The translations under genes were made by a program, and so were the position numbers. Of a stretch of 15,792 nt of DNA, positions 6,457 through 13,812 are shown piece after piece. The stretch's first letter is position 1; each line of letters opens with the position of its first letter. The notes under the pieces were generated by a model. It was not told the origin of the DNA, made no database searches, and saw only the letters and a list, made by a program, of their open reading frames with translations. The DNA comes from Planctomycetales bacterium (lineage in GTDB: Bacteria > Planctomycetota > Planctomycetia > Pirellulales > UBA7805): assembly GCA_011772275.1 (NCBI GenBank), contig WVZU01000328.1, forward strand, positions 1 to 15,792, read 5' to 3'.

Positions 6457-6505
6457 TTGCGGGAGGCGGGTGTTTTCGGCGCACCCCGCATCTCGCACCT
6501 CTCTT

Positions 6506-7414
6506 ATGCCACGTATTCTGATCGTTGACGATTCGGCCGCGGACCGGGGGCTGGTGGGCAGCATTCTGAAGGATCTCCCCCACCTGGAACTGGATTACGC
6601 CAACGATGGAAAGGTGGCCCTGGAGAAAATCAACCAGTCGATCCCCGACCTGGTGCTGACCGACCTGGTCATGCCTCATCTGAATGGACTGGAACTGGTC
6701 AAGGCGGTCCGCCAGCTGGATGCGGCGATCCCGGTCGTGCTGATGACCTCCAAGGGCAGCGCCAAGATTGCGACCGACGCCCTGGTGGCCGGGGCTGCCA
6801 GTTACGTGCCCAAGAGCGAGTTGGTGAACAGTCTGACCGAGACGGTCGACCACGTGCTGGCAATCTCGGCTCCTGTCCGGGGCCACAACCGGCTGATGGA
6901 GTCTCTTACTCGTCGTCGCGTCGTGTTCGAACTGCCCAACAGTTCGACGCATATTGCTTCGCTGATCAGCTTTGTTCAGGACCAGGTGGCCTACCTGGGC
7001 CTTTGCGACGAATCGGAACGCATTCGTTTGGGCGTGGCGTTGGAAGAAGCCCTCTCCAACGCGATGTATCACGGCAACCTGGAGGCGGATTCCTGCCTGA
7101 AAGAACACGATGCGGCCGCCTTCGACCGCCTGGTCCAACAGCGGCGGCGGGAGGCGCCGTACTGCGAACGCAGGATTTTGGTTGAGATTAGCATGAGCAG
7201 CGAGGAGGCGGTGGTTGTCATCCGGGACCAGGGCCCTGGTTTCGATCCGAGCTCGTTGCCCGATCCCACCGATCCGGAAAACCTGGACCGGCTTTGTGGC
7301 CGGGGAGTGTTGTTGATGCGAACGTTCATGGACGACGTCCAATTCAGTGCCCGCGGCAACGAGGTGACGATGATCAAGCGTCGCCAGGCCAGCGAGCCAG
7401 CGGCCGCTTCCTGA
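6506..7414 (+). CDS. Response regulator receiver fused to an RsbW-like ATPase domain
   Basis: The 302-residue protein joins two signalling domains. Residues 1-120 form a CheY-like receiver with the acidic pair Asp8/Asp9, phosphoacceptor Asp53 (LTDLVMP), Thr81 and Lys103 all present. From about residue 138 comes a GHKL/HATPase_c_2 domain of the RsbW/SpoIIAB anti-sigma kinase type: N box ALEEALSNAMYHGN (Asn185), G1 box IRDQGPGF (Asp241), and GRGVLLMRTF (G2, 265-274). A charged segment of about 30 residues (192-223) separates the N and G1 boxes. The likely role is phosphorylation-controlled switching of an anti-sigma or serine-kinase activity, but no sigma factor, anti-anti-sigma protein, PP2C phosphatase or sensor kinase lies in the window. 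ATG 6506 places the LIVDD strand at the N-terminus as expected; no Shine-Dalgarno is visible. The frame extends upstream into gltA but is not coding there. Confidence 0.9.
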   Translation: MPRILIVDDSAADRGLVGSILKDLPHLELDYANDGKVALEKINQSIPDLVLTDLVMPHLNGLELVKAVRQLDAAIPVVLMTSKGSAKIATDALVAGAASYVPKSELVNSLTETVDHVLAISAPVRGHNRLMESLTRRRVVFELPNSSTHIASLISFVQDQVAYLGLCDESERIRLGVALEEALSNAMYHGNLEADSCLKEHDAAAFDRLVQQRRREAPYCERRILVEISMSSEEAVVVIRDQGPGFDPSSLPDPTDPENLDRLCGRGVLLMRTFMDDVQFSARGNEVTMIKRRQASEPAAAS

Positions 7415-7459
7415 CGCGGCCGGCAGGCAGGCCTGGCCGGGGCAGCGGCCCCGGCCGCG
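7415..7459 (+). terminator. Strong GC hairpin cluster directly after the receiver-ATPase gene
   Basis: Immediately after the stop codon, CGCGGCCGG (7415-7423) is perfectly complementary to CCGGCCGCG (7451-7459). A second, competing hairpin pairs GGCCGGGGC (7435-7443) with GCCCCGGCC (7448-7456) around a four-base loop AGCG. Both stems are nine uninterrupted pairs and exclude each other because they share 7451-7456. No T tract follows, so this is not a classical intrinsic terminator. It may act in Rho-assisted termination, as an RNA 3'-end stabiliser, or as a switch. Confidence 0.45.
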
Positions 7460-7544
7460 ACCCGCCAGATGGGCTCGGCGGCGGCATCTGCCGGGCGGCC
7501 GTTCGCCCAGTCCAGCCGCCCCGGCGGAGGTTCTGCAAGGACGT

Positions 7545-7572
7545 TTGATGGCCGCATCCCTTGGAGTATAAT
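7545..7572 (+). promoter_or_regulatory. Strong sigma70-like promoter of the solenoid gene
   Basis: A perfect TATAAT (7567-7572) is preceded at 16 bases by TTGATG (7545-7550; four of six -35 positions, TTGA intact). Transcription would start near 7579, giving a leader of about 75 bases before the ATG at 7653. This is the best promoter-like sequence seen in the window and suggests that the downstream gene is expressed independently of the gltA/receiver genes. Confidence 0.6.
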
Positions 7573-7652
7573 GCACAGATAGAGTGCGTTTTCCGGACAG
7601 CAGAAGAGGCCAGCACGAATCGTTCGCCGCCCCGACGCGATGGCGCGGGTAG

Positions 7653-9236
7653 ATGATGTTACGTCCGGAAAAGCTTGACTTCCGAGTCTGGAAAGCGACC
7701 GTCGGGTCGTGGGGCCCGTTGAATGCGGTCTTCAAGCGCTTTGACAAGAACACGGCAGACGTTCTTCGGCGGAAGACCAGTGGCCTGCTGAATCATCTGG
7801 TCGAGCAGAAGCCCGATTTCGACGTTGCGAGGCTGATTGTCAAGACGTTGCCGGTTGCCGCCGAGCAGATGTCGGCCAAACAATACGAGGAGACGCTGGA
7901 ACTGGTCGCTCGACTGGAAAGTTCCGGCTTCAACACGACGCATCTGTTGAACAAGGCCCTGCCCGCCTTGGGGAATTGCTGCACGGCGGGGGATTCGTTT
8001 TCCACCAACTTGGGCTACTTGGAAGGGCTGATCGGCCACATGCGCAGCCATGACATGGACGCCGGCAAACCTTTGATGGTGGCGGTGCAGGCGGCCACCA
8101 AAGGACTGGACTCTCGCCAACTTGGCAACAGCATCCTCTTCTGTTCGCGCCTGGCCAAAACGGGAGTCGATCCGACGGACACTTTGCGGTTCGGCCTGCC
8201 GGCCGCGGCGACCGCTTTGAACAGCCAGCAGTTTCGGCTGGCCCTCTCGCTGGCCACCCACGCCGCTCAACGCCACCTCAACGTCACCGACCTTTTGGAA
8301 AAGCAGCTGCCTTCGGTGGCCCATGCTGTTTCGCCTGAGCAGTTAACCGCCGGTTTCCGCCTGGCATTGAAGCTTGAAGAGCACGAAGTCTTTATCACGG
8401 ACTTCTTTAAAACGGGGCTGGTCGCACTGGTCGAGATCGGCGAAGCCAGGGAGATACTCACTCGCAATCTCGACTTGATTGCCGAACGGCTGATCTCGCT
8501 GAAAAAGGACGGCATCGAGCTGAATTTGCCGTTGACGGCCATGACCAGCGGCTGCGAACATCAGGACGATTTTCCCGCCACCTTGGAGGCTTTGTGCCGT
8601 TTTGCTCGGCAGGTCAGCCAACACAACGTGTCGCCGGTCAGTTTGATGCAACACGGCTTTCCCGTGGGCGTGAGCCATACGCCGGCAACGTTCAGGGCGG
8701 CCTTGAACAATCTGGTCACGGTGGTCGTCCGCTTGCGGGGTGCCAAGATAGACGAGCACCTGTTGCAGTTCATCATCGAATACGGCATGGACCGTGTGGC
8801 CAAAGTCAGCCAGACCGAAGCAATTTTCCGCGACAACCTGGTTCTCCTGCTGAAATCGTTCCGCCAACTGATTTTCAGCCAGATCGACGCCAAGAGACAT
8901 CAAAAGGCCCTGCAGACCATACGCGATTCGCCTGACGTTTATGTGAACGTGGTCGAATCGCTGAAAGGTGCCGTCCAGTTGCGGGGCGGGCTGGCTTGCA
9001 TTTACGAACTGGCGACGCATGCGGAGTTCGACTGGCGGCGGATGTCGGTCAAGCGGGTGGTCGAACTGTCGTCCCAGATGGCGGACGCGCTGCAGGCGGG
9101 ACATACGGTCCGCGTTGGATACGATCCAAAGGACGGTCCGCAACTGCGGGTGACCCCCTGCCAGCAAGTTTCGACTGAGGCCCCCCCCGCATCAGCCCCC
9201 CCGCTCGCTCAACAAGCGGTTCGACCTAATCCGTGA
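7653..9236 (+). CDS. Unknown protein built of nine ~37-residue helical repeats (alpha-solenoid)
   Basis: I do not recognise this 527-residue protein. After a short N-terminal region (1-55), residues 56-407 can be cut into nine consecutive units beginning at 56, 93, 135, 172, 209, 246, 288, 326 and 366. Spacings are 37, 42, 37, 37, 37, 37, 42, 38 and 40. The usual pattern is a hydrophobic residue, Asp/Asn/Ser two positions later, LL, then LP-x-h, a polar turn, F or L, and a second helix with L at i+4 and i+7; see for example LNVTDLLEKQLPSVAHAV (209-226). This is typical of helix-pair repeats of the TPR/PPR/HEAT kind, which commonly bind proteins or RNA. A helical region (408-500) and a Pro/Ala-rich tail follow. 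No signal peptide, membrane segment or catalytic motif is visible, so it is probably a cytoplasmic scaffold. ATG 7653 (ATGATG) has no clear Shine-Dalgarno. The gene has its own promoter and overlaps the convergent GTPase gene by 11 bases. Confidence 0.8.
   Translation: MMLRPEKLDFRVWKATVGSWGPLNAVFKRFDKNTADVLRRKTSGLLNHLVEQKPDFDVARLIVKTLPVAAEQMSAKQYEETLELVARLESSGFNTTHLLNKALPALGNCCTAGDSFSTNLGYLEGLIGHMRSHDMDAGKPLMVAVQAATKGLDSRQLGNSILFCSRLAKTGVDPTDTLRFGLPAAATALNSQQFRLALSLATHAAQRHLNVTDLLEKQLPSVAHAVSPEQLTAGFRLALKLEEHEVFITDFFKTGLVALVEIGEAREILTRNLDLIAERLISLKKDGIELNLPLTAMTSGCEHQDDFPATLEALCRFARQVSQHNVSPVSLMQHGFPVGVSHTPATFRAALNNLVTVVVRLRGAKIDEHLLQFIIEYGMDRVAKVSQTEAIFRDNLVLLLKSFRQLIFSQIDAKRHQKALQTIRDSPDVYVNVVESLKGAVQLRGGLACIYELATHAEFDWRRMSVKRVVELSSQMADALQAGHTVRVGYDPKDGPQLRVTPCQQVSTEAPPASAPPLAQQAVRPNP
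7818..8873 (+). repeat. Region encoding nine tandem ~37-residue protein repeats
   Basis: These bases encode residues 56-407 of the solenoid protein. The repeat is visible at protein level only; the DNA of the units is strongly diverged, so this is an old duplication series and not a recent tandem array. Five of the nine units are exactly 37 residues; two have a five-residue expansion (93-134 and 246-287). The ninth unit is the least well defined. Confidence 0.65.
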
Positions 9237-10635
9237 CCTCGTGCCGCGGCTGAAGGATTTGGTAGATTTGTTCGGCGAGGGTCGAGCAAATCGTGTCGGA
9301 ATTTTCCGGAGGGGGCAGCCGGCGCAAGGAGGCGAAACAGCGTTCCACGTTTTTTCGTCCAGCGGCCTGGATGGCGGTGACGATGCCGGGTGGGGAAGGT
9401 TCGGCTTCCAAGCGGACCTGCCCGCGTCTGGCGTGGGCTCGGTCGGCCACCACGTCGACATACAAGAGGGCTCGATCGAGCACGACCCAGGGAAAATTCG
9501 GGTTTTTCATCGGTCCGATCTTCAGCAGCTGTCCTCCCAGGGGAAACCCTTGAATTTTGACTTCGGGCAGTTTTGTCGCCGCATACCAGCTGGCGGCGCC
9601 ACCGGTCGCCCCGCCGATTAGCGTGCCGAAGGGAAAGGAAACGGCTGCCGAAGCGGCATCGACCATGCCGCCGGCGACCGCGCCAGCCGCGGCACCGGCG
9701 GCTGTCAGCTGTTTACGGCTCAGCCCCAGCCGATTCCAGCTGTCGACGTCAAACAGGTCTTCGCCGGCAATCTCCAATGGGTGTTCGGCGACCTCCAGCT
9801 GGTGGTGCAGAAAGATCCCTTTCAGCCGATGGTGTCCGGCACGTTCGCGGCGCCGCAACTGGTCATAATATTTTTCCGCGAGGGCCTGCTGGTAAGCGGC
9901 CGGATCGGCATCGGTCGCCAATCGCTTTGCATCGACGCGCGTCATCATCTCCACCAGCATCTCGGAAATCACTTCGGCCGCCTCGCGAAGGTTCGCCAGC
10001 CGATCTGCGCGCAAGCTCTCAATCGCCCGCTGCAGAGGTTCACGCGTCGCCTCGCTGATCTCGCGCAGCATCTTCAACAGCCGCAAGCGCTGCTGGAAAT
10101 CGGCTTGATGCGCGTTGAAGGGGCGGACGATATTGAAGAACTGGTCCAGCATCGCCTGCCAGGCGGTGGAGTAATCTTCGCTGCCGGTGGAATTGATGAG
10201 GGCCACGCGGGGTTGAGCGGTCCAGCGGAGGATTTCCATTTCTGCTTCGTATTTCGGGCTGGGCGGCTTCGAGCCGTCGACAACATACAGAATGGCGGCC
10301 CCGTCCAGGATTGGCCGCAGCAGCTCGCACTCCTGCCCAAACTCGCCCCTCCCCTGGTGCTCTGCCACAAACTCCGCCACCACCTCCCGCCGCTGGGCCA
10401 TCGATCGCTCCCGTTCCTGCAGCCACGTCAGCACCTGCCGCGGCCGCTCGAATCCGGGCGTATCCACCAGCGTGTACAGTGTCTGCCCGCCCACGCGCAT
10501 GGGATATGCGCGGCAATGTCGAGTCGTGCCTGGCATCGCGTCGATCCGTACCGAATCGTCGGCGGCCAGCGTCGATACGATACTGGACTTGCCGCGATTG
10601 ACATGGCCGACCACGACGAACACGGGGGACTTCAT
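9226..10635 (-). CDS. Era-like GTPase with DUF3482 domain
   Basis: The 469-residue protein starts with a P-loop GTPase domain: G1 GHVNRGKS (10-17), switch I PGTT (35-38) and G3 DTPG (58-61). In place of the canonical NKxD guanine-specificity motif it reads NSTG at 148-151 (ALINSTG), which as far as I recall is usual for DUF3482 proteins. The DUF3482 part includes a long charged helical middle, a Gly/Ala-rich stretch (AAGAAAGAVAGGMVDAAS) that could insert into a membrane, and a signature near NPNFPWVVLDRALLY followed by AHARRG. The gene overlaps the upstream DUF2868 gene by four bases (ATGA), and GGGGAGGG (complement of 10642-10649) gives a strong ribosome binding site seven bases before the start. 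In proteobacteria DUF2868 and DUF3482 genes are regular neighbours; their function is not established. The 3' end overlaps the convergent solenoid gene. Confidence 0.9.
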   Translation of the reverse strand: MKSPVFVVVGHVNRGKSSIVSTLAADDSVRIDAMPGTTRHCRAYPMRVGGQTLYTLVDTPGFERPRQVLTWLQERERSMAQRREVVAEFVAEHQGRGEFGQECELLRPILDGAAILYVVDGSKPPSPKYEAEMEILRWTAQPRVALINSTGSEDYSTAWQAMLDQFFNIVRPFNAHQADFQQRLRLLKMLREISEATREPLQRAIESLRADRLANLREAAEVISEMLVEMMTRVDAKRLATDADPAAYQQALAEKYYDQLRRRERAGHHRLKGIFLHHQLEVAEHPLEIAGEDLFDVDSWNRLGLSRKQLTAAGAAAGAVAGGMVDAASAAVSFPFGTLIGGATGGAASWYAATKLPEVKIQGFPLGGQLLKIGPMKNPNFPWVVLDRALLYVDVVADRAHARRGQVRLEAEPSPPGIVTAIQAAGRKNVERCFASLRRLPPPENSDTICSTLAEQIYQILQPRHEVTD

Positions 10636-12209
10636 CCATGACCCTCCCCTGCCAGCGACGCGGGGTCGGTGGCTCGCTCTTCAACCAGGGGTTGGACGGC
10701 CAGCCAGGGATCCCCCAGGTTGGCCAGGCAGCGTCGCCAGATTTCCAGATCCTGGCCGGTGGGCGTCACCGCCGCGCCTTGCTGGTCGCGGTGGAACAGC
10801 AGCACGACAATCAGGACGCCCTCGCCCAGCTGCTTGCGCATGTGGGTCAGGAAGTCCAGGTATTCCGCCACGGGCGGCTCCCATGCTTCGACCACCAGGA
10901 GGACTTGCCCGCCTGGGGCGATCGCGGGCAGGGCGTCGAGGGCCTGCCGGTCCTGTGCCTGGTCCAGCTGGCCGACCAGATACAACTGCCCGACGCCGGC
11001 AGCCCCACGATGTTGCAGAATCTGTTCCAGCTGCGGCCGCGGCAGCTCGACTCCCGCCCACTGCACAACCGTCAGCGGCCCGCTTTCCAGTTCGACAGCG
11101 CCCTGCTTTAACTCTGCACGTCCCCCCTCCGCCTCTGCTTCCTCTTGGCCCGTCAGCGCCTGCATTTCCACCAGGGGGCGATGTAGCCTTTCGATCAGCT
11201 TGAGCACGTCGTGATGTTCCCAGCGGACGTGGCGCAAGGCATAGCGGACCCTTGCATCGGCGATCAGCCAGGTCAGCAGCCGGGGCAGGAGCCCGTAGCA
11301 CAGGAGGGAGGCCAGCAAAAACGGCCACCACGCCGCCCAGACGCTGATCGGCACGCGGCGAAAATCCCGCTCTGCAAGTTTCGAATAACGCGTCTTTTCG
11401 ACCTGGTGCAGCGTCGGGATCCCCGGCTCCCAAGCCGACCACGGGCCGCCGATAATCGTGGCCATCTGATGCAGAGCCGCCGGCTGCAACATCGTGCTCC
11501 GCCAGCCAAACGTTGGATCGTTGCCGTAGGAAATTGCCACAAAGGCCACGATCGCGCCCACGTTGAAGGTGACGGCAAAGGTCTGGGTCAAGCGGACCAG
11601 CAGCCAGAGCCGCAAGGGACCGTACAGCCAATCCAGCCGCCGCGCTTCGCCGCGTGCCAGGTCCATCACCTGGCGATAATCGCGGGAGACTCGATTGGCC
11701 AGCCACAACAAGACGGCGGGGGGGATCCGCCCCATCCCGCGTAACAACATCTGCACGGCCGAACCGCCCGGCAGCACGGCCAACCAGCTGGCGGGCATCA
11801 CGGCCACCAGCCACAGCAGCAACAGCACGACCTGCAGGCCGACCAGCGCGGACCAGAAGAAAATCACGTTTACCGGACGCTGCGTGTCGTACGCCAGCCA
11901 GGGGACGACTGCGGCGATACCGAACAGCAGCCCCAACATGCCTAAAAGCAACCCGATCAGCTCAAGATAACGCTCAGCCTTCTGACCCGTTGTCTCGCTG
12001 CCGGCATATTCACTACGCCTCAGTTGATCCAGCCAGGCGGCCAGCAAGCTGAGTCCCTCCAACCGATCCGCGCCGATCTTTGCACCGATCTGTCCGTCGC
12101 GCCGCCGCAGCTGCTCGATATCGGTCGTCTGGTCACGGCGGAGCTGCAGTTCCAGATCAATCAGGTCGGCGATCTGCAGCCACCGACGCCTGCCAAGTTT
12201 TGCTGCCAT
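10632..12209 (-). CDS. DUF2868 membrane protein, partner of the DUF3482 GTPase
   Basis: From ATG 12209 the product is 525 residues. Four hydrophobic segments are visible at about 84-106, 115-137, 199-226 and 290-312. Between the last two lies NDPTFGWRSTML, followed by GGPWSAWEPGIPTLHQVEKTRY, resembling the DUF2868 pattern of a FGWSTT block followed by PW and an SRYF-like motif. The C-terminal part is soluble, with strand-like VLLVVEAW and VLIVVLLF segments. The frame is open to 12314, but MAAKLGRRRW at 12209 is the likelier start because the preceding codons look like spacer; the ribosome binding site is weak. With the overlapping GTPase gene it forms a two-gene operon. I infer a membrane anchor or effector for the GTPase. 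The family assignment is from recalled motifs, with no search. Confidence 0.85.
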   Translation of the reverse strand: MAAKLGRRRWLQIADLIDLELQLRRDQTTDIEQLRRRDGQIGAKIGADRLEGLSLLAAWLDQLRRSEYAGSETTGQKAERYLELIGLLLGMLGLLFGIAAVVPWLAYDTQRPVNVIFFWSALVGLQVVLLLLWLVAVMPASWLAVLPGGSAVQMLLRGMGRIPPAVLLWLANRVSRDYRQVMDLARGEARRLDWLYGPLRLWLLVRLTQTFAVTFNVGAIVAFVAISYGNDPTFGWRSTMLQPAALHQMATIIGGPWSAWEPGIPTLHQVEKTRYSKLAERDFRRVPISVWAAWWPFLLASLLCYGLLPRLLTWLIADARVRYALRHVRWEHHDVLKLIERLHRPLVEMQALTGQEEAEAEGGRAELKQGAVELESGPLTVVQWAGVELPRPQLEQILQHRGAAGVGQLYLVGQLDQAQDRQALDALPAIAPGGQVLLVVEAWEPPVAEYLDFLTHMRKQLGEGVLIVVLLFHRDQQGAAVTPTGQDLEIWRRCLANLGDPWLAVQPLVEERATDPASLAGEGHG

Positions 12210-13410
12210 GTCGGCCTGCTGGCTCTCTGCGGGACTTCCGCGACAACTTCCACCGGTGAAGGGCGAACGGGGGTCCGCAAACAAACGTCTTTCAGGGCAT
12301 CCTTCCCGCCGCACCCCAGATGCTTAAGGCCTCATTCTGCCGATCCACACCTGGCCTGGCGCGGTTCACCCGGGTGGGCGGGCTGGTTTGTCCCGTCGCA
12401 CTGGGACGAAATTCCGCCCGCGGCACCCCACTGGCCAGGGTGCTGTCGATCTTGTGGCTGCCCAGCGACCGCGGGAAAGACGATTCTTCCTGATCCGCGT
12501 CAAAATTCGCGGCCGCTTCAGCGGACCGGCGGATCGACGTCCCCGCAATCTTGCGGACCCTCCACCCACGATCCGTATCTTTCACTTTGTGCGGGCGACG
12601 CCAGACCGTCAAGGTAGGGACGAGGGCCCCGGAACGAAGTGATCCTGCGGACGATACCTGCGGGTCATTTTCAGCTCGCCCGCCCCTTGGGGGACAAGCA
12701 ACCATGGCCTGCCATTGCCGTTGCGATTCGATCGGCGGATCATCGGTCTTCCCTGCGACGGCCGCGTGAAACACCGATTTCGCCTGGCCGCCATCGACCG
12801 CCAGGACCCATTGCGCGTCGGCTGCCCGACCGATTTGCCGGGCCCCATCTACCCGGGCCCCATCTGTTCGTGCCCTATCCACCCGACCTGCGGGCGGTCG
12901 TCGGGCCCGACGGTTTGGCCTTGCCAGCCGTTGCCCGGTTTCCTGAACCATGCCTGGTCCCGGCGCGGCGCGTTTTCTGTGGATCCCGGCCGCGGTACCG
13001 GCCGACAACTTTGCAGCTGCGCCGTCGGTACTGGTGGTGCGTCGCGGCACCCGTTTGGGCCCGCCAACGGTTCGTTGACATGCCGACGGGGCATCCGCTT
13101 CGATTTTTTTACTGGCCGGGCGGCTTGCTTTGTCTTTTGTTTGTGGGGCTCCTGGAAGTCGACATCGACAGGCGCCGCCGGCTGGTTGCCGAGCCGCTGG
13201 CAAGGTAAAGTGGATTCACGAGTTTGCTGGACACGGTTTCTGCCACGCTTTGGCAGGCGCTGGGGCAGCGACCGAAAAAAAACGGGCATTGAGCAAGAGG
13301 TCTGGCGGGACGTCCCGGCGAGAGTCGTTGTTGGAAGGCCGGCCGCGGCGGTGCGATCCGCGGGGCCATTCCGCTCCCGCAGGGGCGGTGCGGTCAGGAG
13401 CCCCAACCAT
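12210..13410. other. 1.2-kb stretch without a recognisable gene
   Basis: Several long open frames cross this region on both strands, for example minus-strand 12292-13203, but their translations are Arg/Pro/Ala-rich, resemble no family known to me and are what stop-poor GC-rich DNA gives by chance. Visible structure is minor: a hairpin of TTGTCCC (12388-12394) with GGGACGA (12403-12409), and a 12-base direct repeat CGGGCCCCATCT at 12839-12850 and 12854-12865. The missing N-terminal part of the downstream sulfatase is not recognisable here in any frame. Confidence 0.5.
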
Positions 13411-13812
13411 GAAGTGCAGTTGCTGGATCTCTACCCGACCCTGCCGGACCTGGCCGGCCTGCAACCCGATCCGCAACACGAGGGCCACTCCCTGGTCCCT
13501 CTGCTCTCCCTGGTCCCTCTGCTGAAAAACGCTCAGGCCGACTGGCCTCACGTGGCCCGCAGCAGCTTCGGGCCGGGCAATGTGGGAATCGTTGCGGAAG
13601 ACTTCCGTTACATCCGGTACCAAGACGGATCGGAAGAGCTCTACAACCGGCAGGCCGATCCTCACCAATGGCACAATCTGGTGGACCAGCCGGACAGCCA
13701 GCAAACCCTGGCCGAACATCGGGCCTGGCTTCCGGCCGATTATCATCCCGTGCTGGAAACCGGTTCCACCGGGCACAAGGCCTACGAGGCGGCGGAGGCG
13801 AACCGCCGCTGA
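13411..13812 (+). pseudogene. C-terminal remnant of a sulfatase
   Basis: The last 133 codons of a sulfatase (alkaline phosphatase superfamily) are preserved. EVQLLDLYPTLPDLAGL, GHSLVPLL, VAEDFRYIRYQDGSEELYNR and QADPHQWHNLVDQP match the normal C-terminal sulfatase sequence, ending in a TGA at 13812. Everything upstream is missing: the metal-binding N-terminus, the CxPSR site that becomes formylglycine, and the central domain. The open frame continues to 12715 but with unrelated translation, so the breakpoint lies near 13400. The remnant also has a six-residue in-frame duplication (SLVPLL twice). It cannot be an active sulfatase. Planctomycetes carry many sulfatase genes, so decay of one copy is unsurprising. 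Confidence 0.8.
13488..13523 (+). repeat. 18-bp perfect tandem duplication inside the sulfatase remnant
   Basis: The 18-base unit CTCCCTGGTCCCTCTGCT occurs twice without a gap, at 13488-13505 and 13506-13523. It duplicates six residues (SLVPLL) where intact sulfatases normally have a single SLVPLL before the next polar segment. The perfect identity indicates a recent slippage event, consistent with relaxed selection on a dead gene. Confidence 0.9.

Follow-up and report, generated by a model that had tools for sequence, protein, structure and literature searches.

A predicted nine-unit alpha-solenoid protein of a planctomycete, probably a scaffold, and its relation to an undescribed family of long solenoid proteins

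Helical repeats differ in the length of the unit, which is 34 residues in TPR, 35 in PPR, 33-35 in TALE and 37 in HPR proteins. TALE units are near-identical apart from a variable residue pair, and the holding of partner proteins by scaffolds is a common use of such helical arrays. For OPR proteins, units of 38-40 residues are given in one report (PMC8635915), and another (PMC5472282) describes a Phytophthora protein whose 37-residue repeat is of a different kind. The subject of the present analysis is the open reading frame (ORF) at 7653-9236, forward strand, of a 15,792-nucleotide stretch (the window) from a draft genome of a Planctomycetales bacterium (contig WVZU01000328.1). A first-pass annotation, made from the sequence alone, had described the 527-residue product (P0001) as an alpha-solenoid of nine units over residues 56-407, and this description was borne out both by self-similarity at an offset of 37 residues and by nine helix pairs in an AlphaFold model. 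The nine units are correct in structural terms, though unevenly supported by sequence. By profile comparison they are homologous to the N-terminal solenoid of a family of much longer proteins, and P0001 is probably a soluble scaffold.

The ORF is a real gene. It starts with ATG at 7653 and ends with TGA at 9234-9236, its G+C content at third codon positions (GC3, 0.742) lies inside the range of seven other measured genes of the window (0.704-0.827), and a relative of 524 residues (P0003), encoded on a 2852-bp contig, aligned over 94% of P0001 with 57% identity. N-cap, repeats and C-terminal region were each within 53-65% identity between these proteins, which are similar in chain length. The neighbour-like base composition speaks against a recent foreign origin of the gene. 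No hydrophobic stretch suggestive of a membrane span was noted in P0001 (highest 19-residue Kyte-Doolittle mean, 1.2), and the protein, with an overall isoelectric point on the basic side (8.6), is probably cytosolic.

Repetition was evident when P0001 and P0003 were compared with themselves by BLOSUM score over residues 41-410. Thus, offset 37 ranked second in P0001 (z 5.0, behind offset 116, also z 5.0) and first by z (4.7) in P0003; the peaks at 116, 79, 74 and 42 can be composed from 37 and 42, which does not hold for the other listed peaks (17, 53, 112, 59 etc., z 1.5-2.9). The top lag in the hydropathy autocorrelation of P0001 was likewise 37. When P0001 was shuffled in blocks of 7 residues, its offset-37 score was reached at that offset in none of 2000 shuffles, and in three of them when all offsets of 15-119 were allowed. 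In a leave-one-out test, in which each unit was scored with a profile built from the remaining eight and compared with 400 shuffles, the scores of units 1, 2, 4, 5, 6 and 9 of P0001 were reached by 0, 0, 0, 1, 1 and 3 shuffles, respectively. The lengths of the units are, in order, 37, 42, 37, 37, 37, 42, 38, 40 and 42 residues, giving four units of exactly 37 residues where the first-pass annotation had counted five. The regular Leu-Pro (LP) motif that it had also reported was found in register in units 1, 2, 4 and 5 and was absent from that position elsewhere, unit 8 having FP. The units are divergent over their whole length, with no near-identical copies differing at a variable residue pair. 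A single 16-nucleotide pair (88% identical) was all the repetition seen at the DNA level within the gene, and the units are therefore old.

The units are predicted to be antiparallel helix pairs, which fall on all nine of the unit boundaries proposed earlier. In the second AlphaFold model, pairs were placed at residues 58-69/75-90 of unit 1 (residues 56-92; 7818-7928), 96-109/113-132 of unit 2 (93-134; 7929-8054), 139-151/154-169 of unit 3 (135-171; 8055-8165), 175-188/191-206 of unit 4 (172-208; 8166-8276), 211-225/228-243 of unit 5 (209-245; 8277-8387), 251-261/266-285 of unit 6 (246-287; 8388-8513), 291-298/307-322 of unit 7 (288-325; 8514-8627), 328-335/344-363 of unit 8 (326-365; 8628-8747) and 368-385/389-408 of unit 9 (366-407; 8748-8873), the first helix being short in units 7 and 8. 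Helix pairs were also present at units 1-5 of a model made from the two sequences. The nine units are probably stacked side by side in an elongated array. For the superhelix expected from the earlier description, the best of five models (mean predicted local distance difference test score, pLDDT, 74.2) provided the helix pairs, whereas continuous stacking has behind it a predicted template-modelling score (pTM) of 0.59 and one good model of the five. The array is preceded by an N-terminal cap (residues 1-55; 7653-7817), the best conserved part of the protein (36/55 residues identical to P0003), and followed by a C-terminal region (residues 408-500; 8874-9152) modelled as four helices and a beta-hairpin (485-491/495-501) and by a tail (residues 501-527; 9153-9233) of low model confidence with 7/27 residues identical to P0003.

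Six longer proteins (P0004-P0009, 1259-1484 residues), a protein of a Planctomycetota genome (G439) and five relatives of it, were obtained as six of 7988 scored candidates, and a scan of contigs for this family gave six loci (L041-L046) from 21 pattern stretches. Long-family genes were located in G439 (L041:6001-10452), an uncultured bacterium (L042:5471-9736), a Kofleriaceae bin (L044:5977-9756) and a Myxococcales bin (L046:5818-9825), the latter two both belonging to Myxococcota; the C-terminal part only was noted in another uncultured bacterium (L043) and in a 1028-residue protein of a Woesearchaeota bin (L045:4615-7701). A long N-terminal solenoid and a strongly conserved C-terminal domain (TKRRAH...EGVC...GG.H...LALPGINPS...SNR) make up the long-family layout. 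A period of 39 and 43 residues was found in P0004 and P0005 and matching sums in P0006 and P0008, whereas P0007 and P0009 lacked a clear peak. The P0001/P0003 profile scored 116.4 against the long-family profile and 105.3 when the N-terminal parts alone were compared, whereas two sets of 40 column-permuted controls reached at most 28.5 and 23.3 and reversed controls 15.8 and 14.8. In addition, a hidden Markov model (HMM) of the long family built without P0001 and P0003 detected them at E 1.2e-19 and 3.2e-19, respectively. Among 476 ORFs it matched 14, namely five copies of the window gene and nine frames that belong to five long-family proteins, part of which had gone into the HMM; no match at E <= 10 was seen in the other 462 ORFs, among them the Woesearchaeota protein, or in 600 shuffles and 2 reversed sequences. 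By this homology P0001 would be a shorter form, with another C-terminal part, of a repeat domain not described before, its 37/42-residue units differing from the 39/43-residue units of the longer chains. The long-family C-terminal domain is missing from P0001, in which residues 411-527 scored 25.7, inside the null (<= 28.5).

This absence, together with the near-collinearity of the best match (residues 56-415 of P0001 against profile columns 99-507), could mean that P0001 is what remains of a long-family protein, its solenoid part having survived the loss of the conserved C-terminal domain in a role that is reduced or vestigial. We consider that explanation improbable. Collinearity is unproven because further registers also scored (86.6, 69.1 and lower), the frame is open with normal GC3, and the equal length of P0003 and its even conservation from N-cap to C-terminal region are as in a maintained independent protein.

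The Woesearchaeota protein had been a candidate carrier of the repeats and was rejected, as the long-family N-terminal HMM missed it at E <= 10 (E 120 with filters off). It carries the long-family C-terminal domain behind a different N-terminal part, a sharing that could be due to transfer, domain swap or a binning error. Six ORFs picked from the surroundings of two long-family genes had no common theme (YceI, an LRR protein and a kinase-TPR protein in one case; a glycosyltransferase and two PAS/histidine kinases in the other).

Several observations weigh against a regular nine-unit scaffold related to the long family. Units 3, 7 and 8 of P0001 were weak in the leave-one-out test (44, 15 and 15 of the 400 shuffles attained their scores; the corresponding numbers in P0003 were 9, 5 and 2), and lag 37 was just fourth in the hydropathy autocorrelation of P0003, falling outside its top 12 over residues 1-500. 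The other four of the five AlphaFold models scored 46.6-58.1, the rows added to the alignment were chosen on presumed homology, and residues 1-42 were mostly below 50 pLDDT. In the profile comparison the highest control of all, 30.0, came from the P0001/P0003 N-terminal part against its own reverse and exceeded the permuted controls. A single-unit profile matched the long proteins weakly (best E 3.2e-5, with P0008 no higher than reversed controls), so that the link to them rests on whole-array profiles; a regular expression for the unit had no success on the long proteins. Over the first six units, with helix limits from the two-sequence model, P0001 and P0003 were identical at 47/81 residues of the first (A) helices and 55/104 of the second (B) helices, and since conservation is almost equal no binding face stands out. 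Lastly, the neighbouring genes suggest no partner and no operon partner, and in five relatives the flanking genes do without the solenoid gene.

With these points taken into account, we favour the view that P0001 is a soluble cytosolic alpha-solenoid scaffold that binds a partner protein. Nine two-helix units of 37-42 residues would be stacked in a single array, elongated and probably curved, with the conserved N-terminal segment and the C-terminal helical and beta-hairpin cap at its ends, and this adaptor would hold its partner along the surface of the stacked helices. Curvature and partner are both inferred. Whether the ligand is a protein is about evenly balanced in our estimation, although the solenoid, near-neutral and slightly acidic (34 Lys + Arg against 37 Asp + Glu), leans toward protein rather than RNA. 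No enzyme family was recognised in P0001 with Pfam or NCBIfam.

The same charge counts against a different possibility, that of a nucleic-acid-binding solenoid of the TALE/BurrH, PPR or mTERF kind, which would read DNA or RNA along its units. TALE and BurrH proteins, also arrays of two-helix units, were the closest natural structural neighbours of the model. Nevertheless, Foldseek gave no match at E <= 0.001 (E >= 1.5e-3 for TALE/BurrH) and template-modelling (TM) scores of about 0.2; TALE and BurrH alignments obtained with the second model had root-mean-square deviations of 17-24 Å across long spans, and designed helical repeats outranked them in both fold searches. The search with a first, poor model, which returned chiefly designed helical repeats and weak TALE rows, was set aside, as were hits in a viral fold library, where nothing reached E <= 0.001 and the many tape-measure proteins in the top 50 were dismissed as generic helices. 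Units of P0001 are longer than those of TALE proteins and, as noted, divergent throughout. As for PPR, the long family bore, around its helix ends, a resemblance to PPR chains in the PDB, but the single PPR stretches were insignificant (independent E-value 0.25-0.77 in the better match), none of the PPR chains in the PDB was matched by the P0001/P0003 profile at E <= 10, and the units of P0001 are 37-42 residues long. A solenoid that reads nucleic acid is thus unlikely, though somewhat less so than the remnant explanation. Still harder to credit is the broader idea that P0001 and the long family form a new class of modular two-helix repeats (37/42 and 39/43) which, though not of common descent with TALE and PPR, converged with them, each unit binding nucleic acid in its planctomycete and Myxococcota hosts.

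The statement of the first-pass annotation that the protein belongs to no recognised family was confirmed, as neither Pfam nor NCBIfam gave a convincing match to P0001. Thus, no TPR, HEAT, PBS-HEAT, PPR, TALE, mTERF or RAP profile of Pfam-A matched P0001 or P0003 at E <= 10, a threshold to be read with HMMER filters that discard most matches above E of about 0.1, and no TPR, HEAT or PPR family of NCBIfam matched P0001. Chance-level matches were those to TruB-C_2, T2SSF, FlgM and MOZART1 in Pfam (E 0.17-0.32), to CdvB1/B2 in NCBIfam (E 0.022; 14 bits against a cut-off of 350) and, for P0003, to PHROG 955 (E 0.37). A sequence search of the PDB with P0001 returned one myosin chain (E 1.2), which was rejected, and the 11 distinct sequences found with the P0001/P0003 profile (E 0.013-1.2), which comprised haemoglobins, an epimerase and two TPR proteins, were judged chance. 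PADLOC had no match for P0001, P0003 or P0004, and Rfam none anywhere in the window. The best Pfam-A match of the six long-family members was at E 0.025, and two long-family fragments had no NCBIfam match at E <= 1. The long family and its repeat are therefore new to the copies of Pfam-A and NCBIfam searched, while the alpha-solenoid kind is already known; literature searches, mostly of sources outside subscription, found no description of this repeat.

P0001 could in principle be a TPR, HEAT or PPR protein degenerate beyond profile recognition. It would share the antiparallel helix-pair plan predicted here, the long family has its weak PPR likeness, and the two TPR chains among the PDB matches stood at E 0.84 and 1.2. 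However, the profile negatives, within the limit set by the HMMER filters, and a period of 37-42 residues, unlike that of TPR or PPR, make such a degenerate member very doubtful. HPR and OPR proteins resemble the putative scaffold in unit length and helix-pair plan, a likeness by description and not by profile; they differ in being eukaryotic organelle proteins, and no RAP domain was matched in P0001.

P0001 is nearly an orphan, known from one genome and one relative. In a collection of 5.8 billion proteins, two of 7996 scored candidates were retained, one being P0003 and the other (P0002) P0001 read from its second ATG. Within the family, the two-sequence profile matched two of ten genomes at E <= 1, the source genome and G001 (E 0.03 and 0.67, taken as chance), and the gene was found in none of the nine other genomes, several of which are incomplete (62-99%). 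At E <= 0.001, with at most three candidates scored per genome, the profile matched one of 396 genomes of the order, the source itself, and three of 392 of the phylum, the source and two remote ones, through which the long family was reached. A six-row profile gave the identical three of 392 (at most four candidates per genome) and, among 98 relatives of G584, matched once more G584 and G439 (at most 16 candidates). Scans of genome and viral contigs with the two-sequence profile, of limited sensitivity with two short patterns each, confirmed none of 43 and none of 71 pattern stretches as a relative. Weak matches in 11 other genomes (E 0.05-0.6) were treated as chance; the one locus that was read (L014) presumably encodes a protein resembling a sigma-70 factor. 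The suggestion that the protein is planctomycete-specific accordingly overstates the range of P0001 itself and understates that of the repeat, which is also present in the two Myxococcota bins.

The source genome (3.33 Mb, 84.6% complete) has in the window the order mfd, PpiC-type rotamase, citrate synthase, a response-regulator/HATPase fusion and the solenoid gene, then on the opposite strand a DUF3482 GTPase and a DUF2868 protein; the first gene, conserved in relatives, we take to be mfd. The gap of 1811 bp between the response regulator and the GTPase gene contains the solenoid gene, whose last 11 bp are shared with the end of the GTPase gene. In G002, G006, G007 and G008 the order from mfd to DUF2868 is conserved without the solenoid gene, the ends of the response-regulator and GTPase genes being 49, 41, 41 and 75 bp apart, and G005 has the same junction on a short contig (31 bp). 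All five are from one genus (g3), and their tightly adjacent flanking genes indicate that the solenoid gene was either gained in the source lineage or lost in the other genus. Uninformative in this respect were G001 (GTPase without response regulator at E <= 1e-30), G003 and G009 (neither of the two genes) and G004 (a GTPase fragment where a contig ends). In G001, the GTPase is followed by a 155-residue protein (L035:8405-8872, reverse strand) that is HEAT-like by eye, and a different helical-repeat gene may thus lie near the equivalent place.

The fusion upstream (6500-7414) joins a response-regulator receiver domain to an anti-sigma-type HATPase (HATPase_c_2), and a second copy, 39% identical, is present elsewhere in the genome (G000:C339). 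Downstream (9226-12314, reverse strand), the genes of the DUF3482 GTPase and the DUF2868 protein, both of families of unknown function, overlap by 4 bp and adjoined in all seven regions of relatives compared; they look like one unit. The ORF at 12715-13812 had as its sole match the sulfatase C-terminal domain SGSH_C (E 1.6e-6, just below cut-off), its first half looks non-coding by eye, and it is probably a truncated remnant. A promoter-like site matching the consensus (TTGATG-16-TATAAT; 7545-7572, forward strand) lies about 80 bp 5' of the start codon of the solenoid gene, and was the one such match in 7300-9400 as compared with a mean of 0.3 in shuffles.

These results provide a profile, open to testing, for a helical repeat missed by the searched copies of Pfam-A and NCBIfam, and a gene that is nearly an orphan is thereby tied to proteins of about 1400 residues that form an undescribed family in Planctomycetota and Myxococcota. 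From a structure it could be seen if a TALE-like array, or one that binds peptides, has emerged anew. Planctomycetes are reported (PMC3837014) to be rich in alpha-solenoids, and P0001 adds to that richness.
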